Notes under the pieces: model-generated
Told to the model about the DNA's origin: nothing
The model's database searches: none
The model's input: only the letters and a program-made list of their open reading frames with translations
Source: Trichocoleus sp. FACHB-46
Lineage (GTDB): Bacteria; Cyanobacteriota; Cyanobacteriia; FACHB-46
DNA length: 64,000 nucleotides
Direction of reading: 5' to 3'
Assembly: GCF_014695385.1 (NCBI RefSeq)
Contig: NZ_JACJOD010000014.1
Location: forward strand, 124,001-188,000
Part shown: positions 6,330-14,690 of the stretch, one piece after another
Layout of the letters: every line of letters starts with the position of its first letter
Position numbering within the stretch: the stretch's first letter is position 1
Position numbers and translations under genes: made by a program

Positions 6330-7292
6330 TTAGAATCCTTCTTCCTCGTACTCAGGCGCTTTGGTTTTCTCAGGAATGTTTAGCTTTTGCGGTTTGTAAG
6401 GCTTGTCATCGGCCCAGGCATCTTCTACTATCTCTTCTTCGTAGGTGCCCGCAAAATCATCTTCGTAGTCATCATCGTAGCTGGAGGTATAGCGATCGCG
6501 ATCGGTGGCTTCGCTCCAGTTGTCCTCTTCGTCGTAGTAAGCAGGCTCGACTTGGCGTTGCTGACGCAGTTGCTTCGGAGCGGGTTGACTTCCCCAGTCA
6601 TCTTCACTCCAAGCTTCTTCCACTACAGGCTGCGGGGTACGTAGGGGTTGCTGCATCGTGGGAATCCGCACGCCACTACCTAGTTGGTTTTCGGCGGGAG
6701 TGGTGGGCAGAATGTAGTCTTCCTCTTCCTCGCGTTCCCAAGGGGCACGACCAATGCCGATGCGCTCTAGCAGACCCACGGTGAGTTGTGTGACTCGCTC
6801 TTCTGCTCCTTCAAACACAATCAGGCGATCGGGGCCACTGCTGACAATTTCTTCAATTGGCAACTCGTAGGTGCTAACGACTTGGTCAGGAATCAGTGGC
6901 ACTCCTAAGGTGGCAATAATCAAAGAATAAACTTTGCCATCCTCAACGTTGAAGCGGAAGCCACGTACCCGACCCAGCATTTCACCCGTTTCTGTAATCA
7001 CTTCGCTATTGATCAGGGTGCTATAGCCGTCAATATTGATGTCGTCAAGGACGGTGTCGTTGTCGACCAGGGCCACATCGCCAATCTGACGAATGCTGCT
7101 CAAGCTCATAAACTGAGGCATGTTACCTAGGACGCCGGAAAGCAGGTTTTCCCGGAGGCCGAGCGCGACGACTTCCCGCCGATCCACGTCAACCCACAAC
7201 TGACTGACGACTCCCAAACGCTTACCGGTATCGCGGGTAATCACTTGAGTGCCAAGGAGATCGGAGCGTTGCCAGATTTTGTCAGATGTCAT
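6330..7292 (-). CDS. PRC-barrel domain protein with acidic tail
   Basis: A 320-residue protein. Residues ~10-80 (LGTQVITRDTGKRLGVVSQLWVD) and ~90-165 (LINSEVITETGEMLGRVRGF) form two PRC-barrel folds. The C-terminal half is acidic and low-complexity (EEEEDY, YDDDYEDD), probably disordered. PRC barrels occur in photosynthetic reaction-centre H subunits and RimM and generally bind proteins or RNA. The gene sits immediately downstream of smc on the same strand (53-base gap), an arrangement I recall from other cyanobacteria. Confidence 0.88.
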   Translation of the reverse strand: MTSDKIWQRSDLLGTQVITRDTGKRLGVVSQLWVDVDRREVVALGLRENLLSGVLGNMPQFMSLSSIRQIGDVALVDNDTVLDDINIDGYSTLINSEVITETGEMLGRVRGFRFNVEDGKVYSLIIATLGVPLIPDQVVSTYELPIEEIVSSGPDRLIVFEGAEERVTQLTVGLLERIGIGRAPWEREEEEDYILPTTPAENQLGSGVRIPTMQQPLRTPQPVVEEAWSEDDWGSQPAPKQLRQQRQVEPAYYDEEDNWSEATDRDRYTSSYDDDYEDDFAGTYEEEIVEDAWADDKPYKPQKLNIPEKTKAPEYEEEGF

Positions 7293-7345
7293 TATGTCCG
7301 AGTCCTGATCGTGAATCCTAGCTATTAAGTATCAATATTACTAAA

Positions 7346-10300
7346 TCATACCGAGGCACTTTGAGGCTCTAGTTTAATGCCTATAACTTGAGTATGCGCC
7401 CCACGAGCTTGGGTAACGCCAATCGTGCGCTCAGCAGACTCAATCATAGGACGGCGAAGACTCACTACAATAAACTGCGCTTGTTGGGCCTGTTGCCTAA
7501 TCATTCTAGCTAATCGCTCCACGTTTGCTCCATCCAAGAACATGTCTACCTCGTCAAAGGCATAGAACGGTGAGGGACGGTAGCGTTGTAGAGCAAAGAT
7601 AAAACTGAGCGCTGTCAGGGATTTTTCACCCCCCGACATCGAGGCGAGTCGTTGCACAGGTTTGCCTTTCGGGTGTGCAACTAGATTTAAGCCACTATTA
7701 AATGGATCCTGGTGATCATCCAGTTGCAAATGCCCGTCGCCATCGGAGAGTTCGGCAAAGATCACTTGGAAATTCGCATTCACCGCATCGAATGCTTCTT
7801 TGAAGGCTCGCTGCCGCAGAGTAGTGAAGTTCTCAATCCGCAATAACAGCTCGGTGCGTTCTTCTTCCAGAATGGTGAGCTTTTGCGTCAGTTCTTCTAG
7901 ACGGGCTTGGGTGCGATCGTACTCTTCTAGGGCCAGCATGTTGACAGGCTCCATCGCCTGAATCCGCTTTTGCAGCGATCGCAACTCCTGCTGCAACTGC
8001 TCTAAACCTAGATTTTCAGGAAGTTCAGGTAATGGATCGGGCAAGTCTGCTTGTTGTTCGGTGAGCTGTTGCTGAAGTTCTGCCAACTGTTGCCGCTGGG
8101 CGAGGAGGGTTTCTTGCAGTTTTTGCCGCTGCCACTCTAGTTGTTGTTGAGCGGTTTGTCGTTCGCGCAGTTGTCGCTCTAGGCGATCGCGGGCTTGTTT
8201 AGAAACCCCCAACGTTTTCTCTAAGGTCGCGAGTTCAGCTTGGGTTTGAGCAATCTGCCGCTGGAGCGCGGCTTGTTGTTCGCTTAGGCCAGCTTGCTGA
8301 TTTACTTGGGTCGTTTGCTGAGTGCGATACTCTTGCAGGCGGGTTTGGCCTTGCTGCACCTTTTCTTGCAAACGTTGTTGTTGATTTTCCAGGTCTTTGA
8401 GTCGTTGTTCAGCGGCACGCAACGCTAACTCTCGCTCATGCAGTTGGGCTTCTTGAGCCCGAATCGCAACCTGAATTTGCTGCCACTCACTATGGGTCTG
8501 CGACTGCTCTAACTCAGCCAGGGTTTGCCGCCATATTTGCAGTTGTGCTTCTTGGGTGGGAATGTCAGTTTCTAGAGTTTGTAGCCGCGTCTGAGCCGTG
8601 GCTAACTCTTGAGAGTTTTGCTGAAGTTGGGTTTCTAGTTGCGATCGCTGCTGGGTAAGGCTCTTTAGCTCTTTTTGCACCTGCTCGACTTGCAGTTGGT
8701 TTTCCCGATGAGCTTGGCGAGCTTCAATTAGCTCTTGCGATCGCTGCTTCACTGCAACCGAAGCTTTGGCGATCTCATTGGTGCAACGGTTAAGGATGCG
8801 ATCGATCTCTTGTAAGCGTTTTTTCAGCTCTACAATTTCTGCCGATTCCATAGGGTCAGCCTTACCGAAATGGATCGCATAACGGCTATCGCTACTGCCC
8901 CCGCTCATCGCACCACTAACTTCTAGCAATTCGCCATCTAGCGTCACTATGCGGTGCTTCCCTAAATGACGCCGCGCATCCTTCAAAGTCTCGAAGACAA
9001 TTGTGTAGCCAAACACATAGGCAAACACATCAAGATAGCGCGGATCGCATTCGATTAGGTTTACGGCGTAGTCCACAAAGCCAGAACCAATCCGTTCCCA
9101 AGGCGCATTGGAAATCCGAGGGGCTTGGATTTTGTTGAGCGGTAGAAAAGTGGCTCGTCCCGCCCGCTTTTGCTTTAGCAGCTCAATCCCAGCCGCCGCT
9201 ACGGCATCATCTTCCACGACTAACTGGCCTAAGCGACCACCTGCCGCAGTTTCTAAAGCCAACTGATACTGTGGCTCCACTCGACCCAGTTGCGCTACCA
9301 AACCGCAGACACCGGGCATCCCGGTTTGAAGAATCAGCCGCGTTGCATGAGTTCCTTGTGATTCCTGGGCGGCTTGTGCTTGGGCTTCTAGTTTATCTAG
9401 GCGGCGATGCTTCTCTCGTTGCTCTTGTAGTAAGCGGGTTTCGGTCTCTTTTTGGATTTGTAGATTTTGCTCAGTGCTTGCGACGGCTTGGGCGAGTTCT
9501 TGCACCTTCTGAGCTAAGCGATCGCGCATCTCACTTTGCTGGGTGGCGATCGCTTCCTTCTCAGCTATTTCCTGAACGACCGACTGCAATAACTGAGTCT
9601 GTTCTTGAATCTGCCGCTCTAGTTGCGTCGTCCGTTCCCGTAACTGTGCTTGCTCGGTGCGTTGCGGTTCCAAGGTTTGCAGCAGTGTGTCAATCTGTTG
9701 GTGCAGGCTGGTTTGTTGCTGCACCCAAACTTCGGAGGCAGAGGCGATCGCACTAGCAGCTTCGCGGTTTTGATTTAAGGCACTCTCCGCCTCATCCCGC
9801 GCTTTTTGTAGAGGGGCTAGGCTTTGGGTTCCTGTGGTTTGTTGCTGAGCCAGGTTTTCCAGAGTCTTGAGATGTTCCTGGATTTCCTGCTGCATTCTGG
9901 TCAGATTTGCCGCCGTTTCTTGACTGGCTTTGGTCAAATCTAGCTCTTGTCTTTGCAGTTGCCGTAACTCAGCTTCACGGGTAGCAAGGGTAGCTTGAAG
10001 CGCAAGCTGTTCTTCCTCACCTAAGGCTTTCACCCGACTGTTAAGTTCTTCTAGTTCTGCTGTGGCTTGTTGTACTTCAGCCGCAACCGTAGTCAGTTGT
10101 GCGGCCAGTTCTGTTGTCTGGCGATCGCCTGCTTCAATCTGCTGATGTAGGCCCTGTGCCTGCCGTTGCTGAGTGCGCCAAGCCAGTACGCCTTCCCACT
10201 GTTCTTTGGCTTGCAGTTCTTTACGTAATTTCTGATATTTCTCAGCTTTGACGCGGTCTTGCGCCAAGCGATCGCGCTGCACCACTAATTCATTTTCGAC

Positions 10301-10945
10301 AATGCGAAAGCGGTCCTCGCGTTCTTTAACCGCATCAAGCTTGTCTTTGGCTTGAATAATCTTGCGATCGAAGGATGCCACCCCAGCCAGCTCATCAATG
10401 ATGGCGCGACGCTCGCGGGGGTTCATCGAAATGATGCTGGTTACGTCCCCTTGGAGCACCACGTTGTAACCTTCCGGGTAAATCCGTAGCCGATTTAGAT
10501 GCTCATGCAGTTCAGTGAGGGTGCAAGGTTCCCCGTTGATGTAGTAGTTGGAAGTGTAGGTGCCTTGCTGCGTTACCCGGAGCTTTCGCGTTACGGTCCA
10601 GTCACTCGACTCCGGACTTTGCAGCTTAAACTTGTTCTCCGAGTTGGGGTTCTCAGCCGCTAGGTTCGGGAGTTCGTCTTCGAGATCAAAAGTGACGGTG
10701 ACACTGGCTTCAACGGTAGAGCGTCCGCGTGCAGTTTGTTGGTTGTTGACCAAGTCAGGCAGTCGCTCAGCCCGCATTCCCTTGGAACTAGACAAGCCTA
10801 AAGCAAACAGCAACGCATCCAAAATATTAGATTTTCCTGATCCGTTTGGTCCCGAGACCACAGTAAAACCAGGGAGCAACGGGACTGGAGTCGTGCCGCC
10901 AAAAGATTTGAAATTGGAGAGTTCTACCCGCTTGACGTACACCAC
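7346..10945 (-). CDS. smc: Chromosome segregation ATPase SMC
   Basis: A ~1200-residue SMC protein, the ATPase and coiled-coil core of bacterial condensin. The N-terminal head carries the Walker A motif GPNGSGKSNILDALLFALG and the QGDVTSI Q-loop region. Long Gln/Glu-rich coiled coils flank a hinge (VCGLVAQLGRV to GELLEVSGAMSGG). The C-terminal head has the signature SMSGGEKSLTALSFIFAL and Walker B PFYAFDEVDMFLD. I start it at GTG 10945 (VVYVKRVELSNFKSF), where SMC proteins normally begin; an in-frame ATG at 10969 would add eight residues. ScpA and ScpB are not in the window. Confidence 0.97.
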   Translation of the reverse strand: MVYVKRVELSNFKSFGGTTPVPLLPGFTVVSGPNGSGKSNILDALLFALGLSSSKGMRAERLPDLVNNQQTARGRSTVEASVTVTFDLEDELPNLAAENPNSENKFKLQSPESSDWTVTRKLRVTQQGTYTSNYYINGEPCTLTELHEHLNRLRIYPEGYNVVLQGDVTSIISMNPRERRAIIDELAGVASFDRKIIQAKDKLDAVKEREDRFRIVENELVVQRDRLAQDRVKAEKYQKLRKELQAKEQWEGVLAWRTQQRQAQGLHQQIEAGDRQTTELAAQLTTVAAEVQQATAELEELNSRVKALGEEEQLALQATLATREAELRQLQRQELDLTKASQETAANLTRMQQEIQEHLKTLENLAQQQTTGTQSLAPLQKARDEAESALNQNREAASAIASASEVWVQQQTSLHQQIDTLLQTLEPQRTEQAQLRERTTQLERQIQEQTQLLQSVVQEIAEKEAIATQQSEMRDRLAQKVQELAQAVASTEQNLQIQKETETRLLQEQREKHRRLDKLEAQAQAAQESQGTHATRLILQTGMPGVCGLVAQLGRVEPQYQLALETAAGGRLGQLVVEDDAVAAAGIELLKQKRAGRATFLPLNKIQAPRISNAPWERIGSGFVDYAVNLIECDPRYLDVFAYVFGYTIVFETLKDARRHLGKHRIVTLDGELLEVSGAMSGGSSDSRYAIHFGKADPMESAEIVELKKRLQEIDRILNRCTNEIAKASVAVKQRSQELIEARQAHRENQLQVEQVQKELKSLTQQRSQLETQLQQNSQELATAQTRLQTLETDIPTQEAQLQIWRQTLAELEQSQTHSEWQQIQVAIRAQEAQLHERELALRAAEQRLKDLENQQQRLQEKVQQGQTRLQEYRTQQTTQVNQQAGLSEQQAALQRQIAQTQAELATLEKTLGVSKQARDRLERQLRERQTAQQQLEWQRQKLQETLLAQRQQLAELQQQLTEQQADLPDPLPELPENLGLEQLQQELRSLQKRIQAMEPVNMLALEEYDRTQARLEELTQKLTILEEERTELLLRIENFTTLRQRAFKEAFDAVNANFQVIFAELSDGDGHLQLDDHQDPFNSGLNLVAHPKGKPVQRLASMSGGEKSLTALSFIFALQRYRPSPFYAFDEVDMFLDGANVERLARMIRQQAQQAQFIVVSLRRPMIESAERTIGVTQARGAHTQVIGIKLEPQSASV

Positions 10946-11077
10946 TAGCGAAGCTTCTAGCAAGTACAAATTTACTAACTACTGTACCAGATGACAATCA
11001 CCAGATGACAATAATGTCCAACAGAGTAGCACGAGCCTATTCAGATGGAGTCAAAAATTCAACAATTTCCTGAAGCC

Positions 11078-12622
11078 TTACAGCGATCGCGCCAACTGAG
11101 CTGAATTGGCATCTGTGAGACGAATCTGTACTTGCTCTCCTAAGTTCAGGCGATCGTATTCCTCGCAAGGCAGGTTCCATGCTCCTGATTTGGCTTCAGG
11201 TTTTTGAAACCAACCGTTTTTCACTAGGTAGCTGCCAGATAAACGGCAAGTGGCACGAGTAGCTGAAATTCTTTGAGGAGGCAACTGTACTAGATTGATG
11301 TCGATGGAACGTCGCTCAGCCGCATCCTGACCCACTCGCTGATGGGTCTGTTGGGGCACCCACTCTTTGACACGATAAGTCATCCAGGTGTCATGCACTG
11401 GAACTGTTGCCATAATGGGCTTTTGCACAGGCACGACACGAGTGCTAAAGATTGGAACTTCACGCGTATGCTCCACTTGCCGAGTGCTGTAGACTGGGAC
11501 TTCGCGCCTATGCTTCACTTGTCGAGTGCTAAAGATTGGGACGGTACGAGTTCGGGGAATTTTGCGAGTGCTATAAAGCAGAATAGTGCGAGTGCGGGGA
11601 ATTTTGCGGGTACTGTAAACCGGAATCTCATGGCAAACTCGCTTGCCCAGCCCGTTACCTTGACTGGTGACTTTACACTCCGACTTAGTACCCGATTGGT
11701 AGCGCTCCGAATCGTAATAAGTCTCAGTACGAGTGCCGCTTTGATATTCTTCCGAGTCGTAATAAGTCTCGGTGCGAGTACCGCTTTGATATTGTTCTGG
11801 TTGAGTATAAATCTCAGTACGAGTGCCGCTCTGATATTGCTCTGGTTCGTAGTAAGTCTCGGTGCGAGTGCCACTTTGGTACTGCTCGCTCACCATGACT
11901 GTACGCACACCTTGCCGTTTTTGGCTTACCCCTCGCTGTTTCCGAATGGATTTGAGAATAGTGGCATTGGTTGGAACCGACTCATCCCAGCCTTGGCGAG
12001 TAGATGTCTTCTGTGTTTGCACATCTACCTCGACGGTCCACTGCAAGTCAGTGACCTGCACTTTCAGCAAGGTAGGATCCTTGGTGCCCACAGACTCAAC
12101 TGCACCATTCCAGAAAACGCCACTGACTACAGTCAGTCCTAGGGCTCCAGCTGTTAGCCAGCCTAATCGACTATTGTTTCCTGACGGGTTAAAGCCGTTG
12201 GAGGGTGAGTGGTCCATTGAACGTGAGGGAGCAATGGTAGGAGACTCGCTCTGACGCTGTACTAGCTCTCCAATCACGGATAAACTTGGGGCTTGCTGAT
12301 CTGCTGCTGAATCGCCGGTAATGCCTCCCACCGCAGAGATTTGATAGCTGTTGCAATTACTGCACTGTAAAAGTTCGGCAGACAGCCCTACATCTTCATT
12401 GACGGCTTCACAGACCTTACAAACCCAAAAAGGCGGGCGATTGATTAAACTGGGGTCCGTAATTAGCTGACTATCTGACGCTTCGTACAGTTTTACGGCT
12501 TCTGTACGCCAATAGAAACAGCTGGGGCAGCGATTCCCCTGAGAGTTGAAGACAGCACTGATATGAAGTTGTCCACAATGAGGGCAATCCCAAAACAATT
12601 CTACGTATTCAACTGTTTCCAT
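11078..12622 (-). CDS. Zinc-ribbon, single-TM protein with a 5+5 repeat beta-ribbon insertion
   Basis: A 514-residue protein of unrecognised family. Residues 13-35 hold CPHC and CPSC, and 68-90 hold CKVC and CSNC: two zinc ribbons. One membrane helix follows at ~153-171. After a beta-rich part (188-215) come five 15-residue repeats of EQYQSGTRTETYY type (246-320), then a loop with Cys316 and Cys330 around NGLGK, then five 14-residue repeats of YSTRKIPRTRT type (336-405). The C-terminus (~440-510) is again beta-rich with two Cys. The matched repeat numbers suggest a long antiparallel ribbon. Function is unknown. Confidence 0.85.
   Translation of the reverse strand: METVEYVELFWDCPHCGQLHISAVFNSQGNRCPSCFYWRTEAVKLYEASDSQLITDPSLINRPPFWVCKVCEAVNEDVGLSAELLQCSNCNSYQISAVGGITGDSAADQQAPSLSVIGELVQRQSESPTIAPSRSMDHSPSNGFNPSGNNSRLGWLTAGALGLTVVSGVFWNGAVESVGTKDPTLLKVQVTDLQWTVEVDVQTQKTSTRQGWDESVPTNATILKSIRKQRGVSQKRQGVRTVMVSEQYQSGTRTETYYEPEQYQSGTRTEIYTQPEQYQSGTRTETYYDSEEYQSGTRTETYYDSERYQSGTKSECKVTSQGNGLGKRVCHEIPVYSTRKIPRTRTILLYSTRKIPRTRTVPIFSTRQVKHRREVPVYSTRQVEHTREVPIFSTRVVPVQKPIMATVPVHDTWMTYRVKEWVPQQTHQRVGQDAAERRSIDINLVQLPPQRISATRATCRLSGSYLVKNGWFQKPEAKSGAWNLPCEEYDRLNLGEQVQIRLTDANSAQLARSL
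11408..11887 (-). repeat. Two in-frame tandem repeat blocks (5 x 45 bp and 5 x 42 bp)
   Basis: Within the zinc-ribbon gene, 11663-11887 encodes five 15-residue units (YQSGTRTE core) and 11408-11617 encodes five 14-residue units (Y/F-STR core). Units are similar but not identical at the DNA level, so they are probably old and under selection. Confidence 0.85.
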
Positions 12623-12794
12623 AGGGCTTAGGGAGCTTGAAGTTGGTAGGTGCTACAAGCCAATAACTTCTGAGAACGGAAAAATTCTCGTTTAGGTGTA
12701 CTAACAATCGTGAATTTTCGTGAGCAAGATTTAGTGGCTATGTCGAGTGTTTCTATAGAGAGCGATCGCCCCAAATCTCCTAATCGCATAGCTT

Positions 12795-14690
12795 TTAGCT
12801 TTCAGCTAAGAGAATGATAGTGTCTTGAGACGAAAAGGTGATGGGCTGGTCTTTTTTGGGATTGATTACCACACCGTAAGCTCTAGCCACATTATTAGCA
12901 TCAGCTTTGCAACGGTAACCGATCGCCGATTCCCCTCGTTGTCTGGCTGCCTCAACCACGGTGTAGAAATTCATAGGTTGAGCGATCGCCACATAATCAT
13001 CTACTGGCTTCAGGTAAATCTCAGAACCTTCTGGGTTGAAGAGGTCAGCGAATACGGCATTTAAGCTTTTTTGTTCTGCCACTTGAGCCAACATTCGACT
13101 GATGATCTGCTCACTAATGACAAAATCATCGGGTCGCGCCACCTGAGCTAAAGCTTGGTTCCGTACATCCAGAATTTCTGTGACGATTTGGAAATCGTGG
13201 TTGTGGCGATTAGCGATATCCCGCAGGTGCAGTAGTCTGACAAGCGTTTCGGCATCTGACTCCTCAGGATCGAGATCCGGATTGCACAAAACCACGACAT
13301 GGTCATATTGAGTCAAGTTCAGGCTCTCTAGGACCCGGCGATCGGTGGGGTCTCCAGCGCGATACTGCATCGTTTGTTTCTGTAACTTGAGGGTTTCCGC
13401 TGAGAGGTCAACCTCTGCTTCCGGAAACCCAGGAGCCACGGTCACTGTAGAACTAGGGGCAACGTATTGATCGAGCTGCTGGATGATTTCAACGACGCGA
13501 TCGTTCCAACCCAAAATTAAGGTATGTTCGGCGGCAGCTGGAGGACGATTGCTCAACTGAATCGCTGATACATTGATGGGTGGCTCTGAGTGAGTAGAGA
13601 GCTGCATGGTGTCGTCATCTTCGCTAATCAAGATGAGTTGCTCACCTGGTTGGAGCGGTGTTTCTACAGGGGGGTTGAGCTGAATGGTGCCATCAGTATG
13701 TTTAATCCCAATCACCGTGGAATCGTTGTAAGCCAGAAGCGCTTTACCATAGGGCTGTCCTTGCAGCGTTGGCTCGGTTCTGAAGTAGATTTCGTTGCCG
13801 CTGAAATCGAGCAGATCCATGTAAACAAGGGACAAGCCTGATTGCCGACAAGTTTGCACCACGATGCGCGAAATTAGATCGTTGGTCAGCAGTATCTCTA
13901 CTTCGTTCTGCCCTACCAAGTTAATGACATCCAGACTCTTGGGATTCTGAACTTGGGCAACGATGTGATAAGGCTGAGGCAGCGATCGCGGAATATTAGT
14001 AATGGCAAGCAGGGTTTTAACGAGTTGCGTATCCGCCCGTTGGTTGTGGGGGCTGAGAATAATGATGGAGCGCGCAGTCTGAATACTCACCATACCGAGA
14101 TCTGCCATGCTGCTAGGGCTTCCGGTACGGCAAACTAAGCGAATGCGGGGCAGCTTACCCAACGTATCGGCTAAGGCAATATCCATCTGCATCTTGTCTT
14201 CTTCACTCAGGACGACAATGCAGGTATCCGGTCGATTGGCATTAGCTAGAGCTAGTTCAGAAATGAGTGTGAAGACTTGAAGCGACCAGCCTAAAATCAC
14301 AATGTGGTCGGTTTCAATTACCCGCGATCGCCCTTTGCGGAGGTCTTCTAGCTTGGTGTCGATACCACTACTAAGCAGACCAATCAGGGTACTGACTACA
14401 AAAATGCCACCAAAGGTGACAAACAGCATTGCAAAGCGGAAGACCCAACCTGTATCACCGCCTACGGTACCTGAGTCTAAGGTTCGCATCAAAACTCCCC
14501 AGATAGCTTCGGGGAGACTGAGGCGATCGCCACCCTCTGGAGCAATCCCACTCAAGCTAACCAGGAATGCCATCAACAGGATAAATGCCAGAGACACCAA
14601 CGCCAGTCCGCTAACGAGGGATACGGTACCTCTGGACATAAAGTTGTCGAATCTGTAGCGCAAGCGGTCTGCGATGGCAATTTTGCCCAT
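12795..14690 (-). CDS. CASTOR/POLLUX-type ion channel with RCK/TrkA-N domains
   Basis: A 631-residue membrane protein. Residues ~20-50 (SLVSGLALVSLAFILLMAFL) and ~80-107 (RFAMLFVTFGGIFVVSTLIG) are membrane helices flanking a short pore region with SGTVGGDTG. Two tandem Rossmann-like RCK regions follow: HIVILGWSLQVFTLISEL with DTCIVVLSE, and HTLILGWNDRVVEIIQQL with HVVVLCNPDLDPEESDAET. This is the layout of CASTOR/POLLUX channels, which gate potassium or calcium. Bacterial relatives are mostly uncharacterised. The start at 14690 gives the basic segment MGKIAIADRLRYR before the first helix. Confidence 0.88.
   Translation of the reverse strand: MGKIAIADRLRYRFDNFMSRGTVSLVSGLALVSLAFILLMAFLVSLSGIAPEGGDRLSLPEAIWGVLMRTLDSGTVGGDTGWVFRFAMLFVTFGGIFVVSTLIGLLSSGIDTKLEDLRKGRSRVIETDHIVILGWSLQVFTLISELALANANRPDTCIVVLSEEDKMQMDIALADTLGKLPRIRLVCRTGSPSSMADLGMVSIQTARSIIILSPHNQRADTQLVKTLLAITNIPRSLPQPYHIVAQVQNPKSLDVINLVGQNEVEILLTNDLISRIVVQTCRQSGLSLVYMDLLDFSGNEIYFRTEPTLQGQPYGKALLAYNDSTVIGIKHTDGTIQLNPPVETPLQPGEQLILISEDDDTMQLSTHSEPPINVSAIQLSNRPPAAAEHTLILGWNDRVVEIIQQLDQYVAPSSTVTVAPGFPEAEVDLSAETLKLQKQTMQYRAGDPTDRRVLESLNLTQYDHVVVLCNPDLDPEESDAETLVRLLHLRDIANRHNHDFQIVTEILDVRNQALAQVARPDDFVISEQIISRMLAQVAEQKSLNAVFADLFNPEGSEIYLKPVDDYVAIAQPMNFYTVVEAARQRGESAIGYRCKADANNVARAYGVVINPKKDQPITFSSQDTIILLAES

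Follow-up and report, generated by a model that had tools for sequence, protein, structure and literature searches.

The window, that is, the whole stretch of 64,000 nucleotides of Trichocoleus sp. FACHB-46 analysed here, carries on its minus strand an open reading frame of 514 amino acids that begins with ATG and spans positions 11078-12622, as derived from the reading frame itself and from homologues. The first-pass annotation had these coordinates right and named no strand. On one side the gene is flanked by a Castor/Pollux-type channel gene and on the other by smc, all on the same strand, and from 6330 to 14690 the minus strand displays in succession the channel gene, the 514-aa frame, smc, and a PRC-barrel gene. 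No evidence was found for a functional link between the 514-aa frame and the flanking channel gene or smc. A frame of 266 amino acids on the opposite strand (11342-12142) is a mirror of the repeats, and we found no support for it as a gene.

The encoded protein revealed the following layout, all of it on the minus strand. Two zinc ribbons come first, one at residues 13-35 (C13, C16, C32, C35; 12518-12586) and one at residues 68-90 (C68, C71, C87, C90; 12353-12421); the cysteines of both are invariant in the homologue alignment, and for the first ribbon Pfam zinc-ribbon matches are seen in relatives. A single membrane helix is placed at residues ~153-175 (12098-12166) by hydropathy and by a positive-inside charge pattern across 80 family members. 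These Cys4 sets and the one hydrophobic segment agree with the first-pass annotation, which had described a single membrane helix with a pair of zinc ribbons on its cytoplasmic side. The ectodomain core is split: its first half, residues 185-230 (11933-12070), includes an AF2-predicted strand at 185-212 (pLDDT ~95) and the conserved W195, W212, and P217, and its second half, residues 413-514 (11081-11386; W421, C459, C486), is conserved and displays AF2 strands with a pLDDT >90. Between them lie the N arm, the tip, and the C arm. The N arm, residues 231-315 (11678-11932), is made up of five 15-residue YQSGT units plus base units of 13 and 7 residues and carries Gly nodes at 231, 238, 251, 266, 281, 296, and 311; the C arm, residues 331-412 (11387-11632), consists of five 14-residue [YF]STR units plus base units of 12 and 6 residues, with partner nodes at 334, 348, 362, 376, 390, 402, and 408. 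The tip, residues 316-330 (11633-11677), reads C-KVTSQGNGLGKRV-C and contains a conserved GxG; Cys316, G324, and G326 are invariant or nearly so in homologue alignments.

The YQSGT motif starts at residues 248, 263, 278, 293, and 308, with a spacing of exactly 15 and a fifth unit shortened by Cys316, and [YF]STR starts at residues 336, 350, 364, 378, and 392, with a spacing of exactly 14. Five repeats of each length had been proposed at the outset; their spacing and counts proved exact, but the array is longer than that, since two degenerate base units bring the Gly nodes of the N strand to seven, with seven matching positions on the C strand (six Pro, one Leu). Likewise, all five C units are present, but their core, given earlier as YSTR, is [YF]STR, the Tyr not being constant. 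Cys316 and Cys330 do bound the loop between the two blocks, as had been stated. At the DNA level, TRF reports tandem arrays of 45 bp and 42 bp. Codon differences among the four full N units are mostly synonymous (30 synonymous versus 18 nonsynonymous), and the net charge per unit ranges from -1 to -3 in the N units and from 0 to +4 in the C units.

The window protein gave no match at family cut-off in Pfam, NCBIfam, PADLOC, or the PDB sequences. It is not a one-off but an extreme, long-armed member of an undescribed family, in which Pfam recognises the zinc ribbons only and leaves the ectodomain uncovered. With this family it has in common the domain order, in which two or more zinc ribbons of the CxxC type are followed by one helix, a split ectodomain core with its Trp and Pro residues (W195, P217, and W421 in the window protein), a Cys-bounded GxG tip, and a Gly/Pro node register in which the N strand has one extra residue per node. 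In cyanobacteria the gene is rare (9 of 390 genomes), and it is absent from two other genomes compared for its genus and order. The family is common in Myxococcota (69 of 146 genomes at E <= 1e-12) and in Chloroflexota; in the phylum to which locus L041 belongs, 17 of 113 genomes have it, while it is rare in Patescibacteria and appears sporadically in Pseudomonadota. Viral contigs and plasmids yielded no relatives. Gene neighbourhoods at ~40 loci revealed no recurring partner, the neighbours varying by lineage (HDAC-like, VanY, PhoU, AhpC, DUF364). An origin as a mobile-element, toxin, or defence gene was considered and found no supporting evidence.

Some loci hold only part of such a gene. 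L044 (G130 contig 55; C55:6552-6929) is a close relative of the zinc-ribbon half whose frame stops early, ahead of the membrane helix, and looks truncated; its contig ends soon after the gene, and a transposase-like gene lies further upstream. The cyanobacterial locus L015 / L045 (G063 contig 24) displays an open frame of 94 amino acids that covers hardly more than zinc ribbon 1; this gene is apparently decaying.

Arm length differs between distant relatives among the species-level genomes, and where it differs, the two sides mostly differ together. The one further expanded member that was found is L019, encoded in an alphaproteobacterial MAG; its YQSGT units and its [YF][SD]TR units number three each. 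From L019 to the window protein, that is, from 3+3 to 5+5, the N arm gains 30 residues and the C arm 28, two units per side. In short relatives both arms are short, the C side measuring 15, 21, or 37 residues. The expectation that N- and C-side repeat numbers covary among homologues was thus borne out, with expanded arms known in only two proteins, the window protein and L019. In a tree built without the arms, L019 is not firmly sister to the window protein (support 81/41), so the matched expansion may have occurred more than once. L019 (3893-5365) is the sole long-armed member among 349 genomes of its phylum; it lies in a 1.8-Mb MAG next to fumC, metX, and chorismate mutase, which are bacterial housekeeping genes, and was probably acquired horizontally. 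Measured between distant anchors, arm lengths gave a raw correlation of only r = 0.73, owing to lineage-specific insertions before the N arm in some lineages and to some mis-picked anchors; because this dilutes the signal, node offsets were used instead. An exception is a Chloroflexota class (L051, L052, L054, L056-L058, L069) in which the N arm exceeds the C arm by ~10 residues, possibly through a side loop on one strand.

Counted from the tip cysteines, every Gly-Thr/Val of the N strand faces a Pro-Val/Ile-Tyr/Phe/Met, or a substitute, on the C strand, and per node the N side gains one residue over the C side (15/14, 13/12, 7/6). In the window protein, N-node offsets of 5, 20, 35, 50, 65, 78, and 85 from C316 predict C-node offsets of 4, 18, 32, 46, 60, 72, and 78 from C330, the last two of each series belonging to the degenerate base units. 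Pro stands at six of these seven positions, and when the prediction was shifted by 1-6 residues, 0-3 matches were left; as nodes were picked by eye in the sequences before tabulation by script, it is this shifted control that should be judged and not the plain count. The same arithmetic also holds for the five nodes of L019, for the short form found in cyanobacteria, for L050, a Chloroflexota search hit whose tip differs by two residues, and for three hits of the Myxococcota search (L092, L098, L103), while L146 misses it. Relatives mostly have 0-3 nodes, compared with five in L019 and seven in the window protein. Each Gly node is probably a G1-type beta-bulge that would add one residue on the N strand, which would give the one-residue excess at each Gly. 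The cross-strand charge product showed no clear optimum register by offset. Mutual information across the strands is weak; its maxima fall on the predicted register and on one lying two residues away, and one parallel control was equally high; it is suggestive at most, weakly favouring the predicted register.

Cysteines in other branches speak to the same register. Candidate cross-strand pairs at the base or in the middle of the arm in three of them sit at the offset it predicts, the difference between the two sides being equal to the number of nodes between pair and tip: -8/+8 with no node (13 sequences), -16/+14 with two nodes (13 sequences), and, in Myxococcota, -15/+14 with one node and -33/+30 with three. 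Within the -16/+14 class (n = 40), Cys+14 is present in all, Cys-16 in 13, and Cys-28, mostly after the core Trp, in 27; the latter two never occur together and are never both absent. Misses are a Myxococcota pair at -6/+7 and two small classes, a Chloroflexota one with -19/+9 and L146. The Myxococcota pair belongs to the long-hairpin members L098-L108, which display three extra cysteines on each arm; the other two pairs that these form fit the register. Several genomes with members of this type carry two or more copies.

As to topology, the 80 homologues display a mean net charge of +2.8 in the 15 residues before the helix and -0.1 in the 15 after it, 68 of them obey the positive-inside rule, and in 77 the ectodomain has an even number of cysteines. 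Charge pattern and even counts are consistent with cytoplasmic zinc ribbons and disulfides outside. As zinc ribbons need reduced cysteines and those of the ectodomain appear paired, the ribbon formed by the two arms most likely lies in the periplasm, the thylakoid lumen being the alternative compartment in a cyanobacterium. A disulfide between Cys316 and Cys330 would close the tip. Three Myxococcota members (L088, L094, L095) are without tip cysteines; the GNG of the tip is retained in them, as are TG and PVY/PIY-like motifs in the arms, and this bond thus seems dispensable in some lineages.

Structure prediction of the ectodomain by AF2, from an alignment of 23 rows comprising the window protein and homologous loci of other genomes, gave a pLDDT of 83.4 and a pTM of 0.48. 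The two blocks came out as two continuous strands joined at the tip, one covering the N arm (221-320) and one the C arm (326-432), each of ~100 residues, with a five-residue turn (321-325) inside Cys316-Cys330. Confident core strands flank the arm before (185-212) and after (450-510), as expected for an arm inserted into a split domain. In the middle of both arms the pLDDT drops to 55-59, which together with the pTM of 0.48 means that the model does not fix the middle register of the ribbon; such values are what one would expect when an arm is long and thin and only a few homologues are expanded.

Taken together, we consider it likely, at a probability of roughly 0.8 that concerns architecture and not function, that the encoded protein crosses the membrane once, has its two zinc ribbons in the cytoplasm, and projects one very long antiparallel beta-ribbon from a domain in the periplasm. 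The repeats, the covarying arm lengths, the register arithmetic, and the two-strand model are strongly supported. The antiparallel ribbon that the first-pass annotation had suggested from equal repeat numbers thus gained support, both from that covariation and from a model in which the blocks form two strands joined at the tip; neither test that the annotation had named as able to refute it did so. The N strand (231-315) would pair with the C strand (331-412) along its length as a ladder of units, each Gly-Thr/Val node lying opposite a Pro-Val/Ile-Tyr/Phe/Met, and the ribbon would grow when a 15-residue unit of the N strand and a 14-residue unit of the C strand are duplicated in step.

What such an arm does can be addressed more tentatively. 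At ~0.33 nm per residue, the ~85 residues of the window arm would reach ~28 nm, and the arm of L019 ~18 nm by the same arithmetic. With the same repeat number on two separately encoded strands, the arm appears built to an adjustable length, and since the GxG of the tip, the core, and the zinc ribbons are conserved while arm length varies, a spacer is the simplest reading. The protein may, then, serve as an adjustable periplasmic spacer or ruler, a possibility to which we give clearly less than even odds, holding the conserved Gly-rich tip at a set distance from the inner membrane and perhaps linking it, by way of the zinc ribbons, to a partner in the cytoplasm. With no greater confidence, we envisage a molecular ruler in the form of a two-stranded beta-ribbon, each unit of which is encoded in two distant places of the gene and which grows by coordinated duplication on both strands.

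The main rival to the spacer concerns function only and is compatible with the ribbon architecture: the protein could be a signalling receptor whose ectodomain or tip binds a ligand and whose zinc ribbons relay or regulate, arm length being incidental. The succession of zinc ribbons, one helix, and ectodomain resembles sensor topology, and the GxG is conserved family-wide; however, neither an output domain nor a linked regulator or operon was found, and the matched lengthening of the arms is left unexplained. We regard this reading as only slightly less likely than the spacer.

The ribbon architecture itself has weaker competitors. It is improbable that each block folds alone, for example as repeat hairpins in a meander sheet, with equal numbers by coincidence. 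A single-sequence AF2 run did show separate 10-residue strands in the N block, but at an uninformative pLDDT of 35, and the aligned run replaced them by two continuous strands; independent folding also gives no reason for the covariation of 5+5 and 3+3, for the one-residue-per-node register, or for the offsets of the Cys pairs. Very improbable is a pore-forming or membrane-inserting hairpin of the aerolysin or lysenin kind. Pores of these two proteins were the top Foldseek matches in the PDB, but the best E was 1.9e-3 and TM-scores were 0.07-0.18, with only a long hairpin in common, and searches of both PDB and BFVD returned other long hairpins only and no fold relative. Moreover, the units are strongly charged and are without the alternating hydrophobic face of a membrane barrel, the protein has a helix of its own as an anchor, and most of its relatives have short arms. 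Least credible of all is a neutral, mostly disordered expansion without structure, since slippage readily expands tandem arrays but would not account for exact unit lengths, mostly synonymous changes in the N units, equal growth on both sides, and nodes conserved across several lineages.

A two-stranded ribbon of matched repeats would make the family of wider interest. The analysis exposes a widespread family of bacterial membrane proteins for whose ectodomain no Pfam or NCBIfam model and no PDB relative was found, and it offers what would be a clear case of a beta-hairpin lengthened through paired repeats on both strands. As length must change at two separated places at once, the family provides a clean test of matched-strand co-evolution, and the 15/14 unit, with a Gly/Pro node in each, may provide a rule by which long soluble beta-ribbons could be designed to a desired length. 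If the ruler reading is true, setting the reach of a tip across the periplasm by coordinated duplication would be a new structural principle.

Known systems share single aspects of this architecture. TcaA-type membrane zinc-ribbon proteins likewise combine a membrane protein with a zinc ribbon, and two family members match NF053815 (TcaA-type; best E 6.6e-6); the window protein itself has no match to this NCBIfam model, and the similarity of the family is probably limited to the zinc ribbon, no ectodomain similarity having been found. Aerolysin and lysenin also display a very long two-stranded hairpin, whereas the arm of the window protein is polar, membrane-anchored, without a known toxin context, and without a significant fold match to them. 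In SMC and Rad50, antiparallel coiled-coil arms are formed by strands that lie far apart in the sequence and keep matched lengths, just as in the long antiparallel arm proposed here; their arms, however, are helical and without recognisable paired repeats, while ours is predicted to be beta and reveals such repeats. In the periscope proteins (SasG, Rib, and the SHIRT arrays of Sgo_0707), the distance between the cell and a functional end depends on the number of repeats (PMC8201768), and the likeness to the proposed arm lies in a reach governed in this way. Periscope proteins are surface proteins with one tandem array of whole domains (PMC8201768). Where these form a rod of near-identical whole domains in one tandem row, the window protein, held by a membrane helix, displays an array of 15-residue units before the tip and one of 14-residue units after it, so that its unit is split between separated arrays that must change together.
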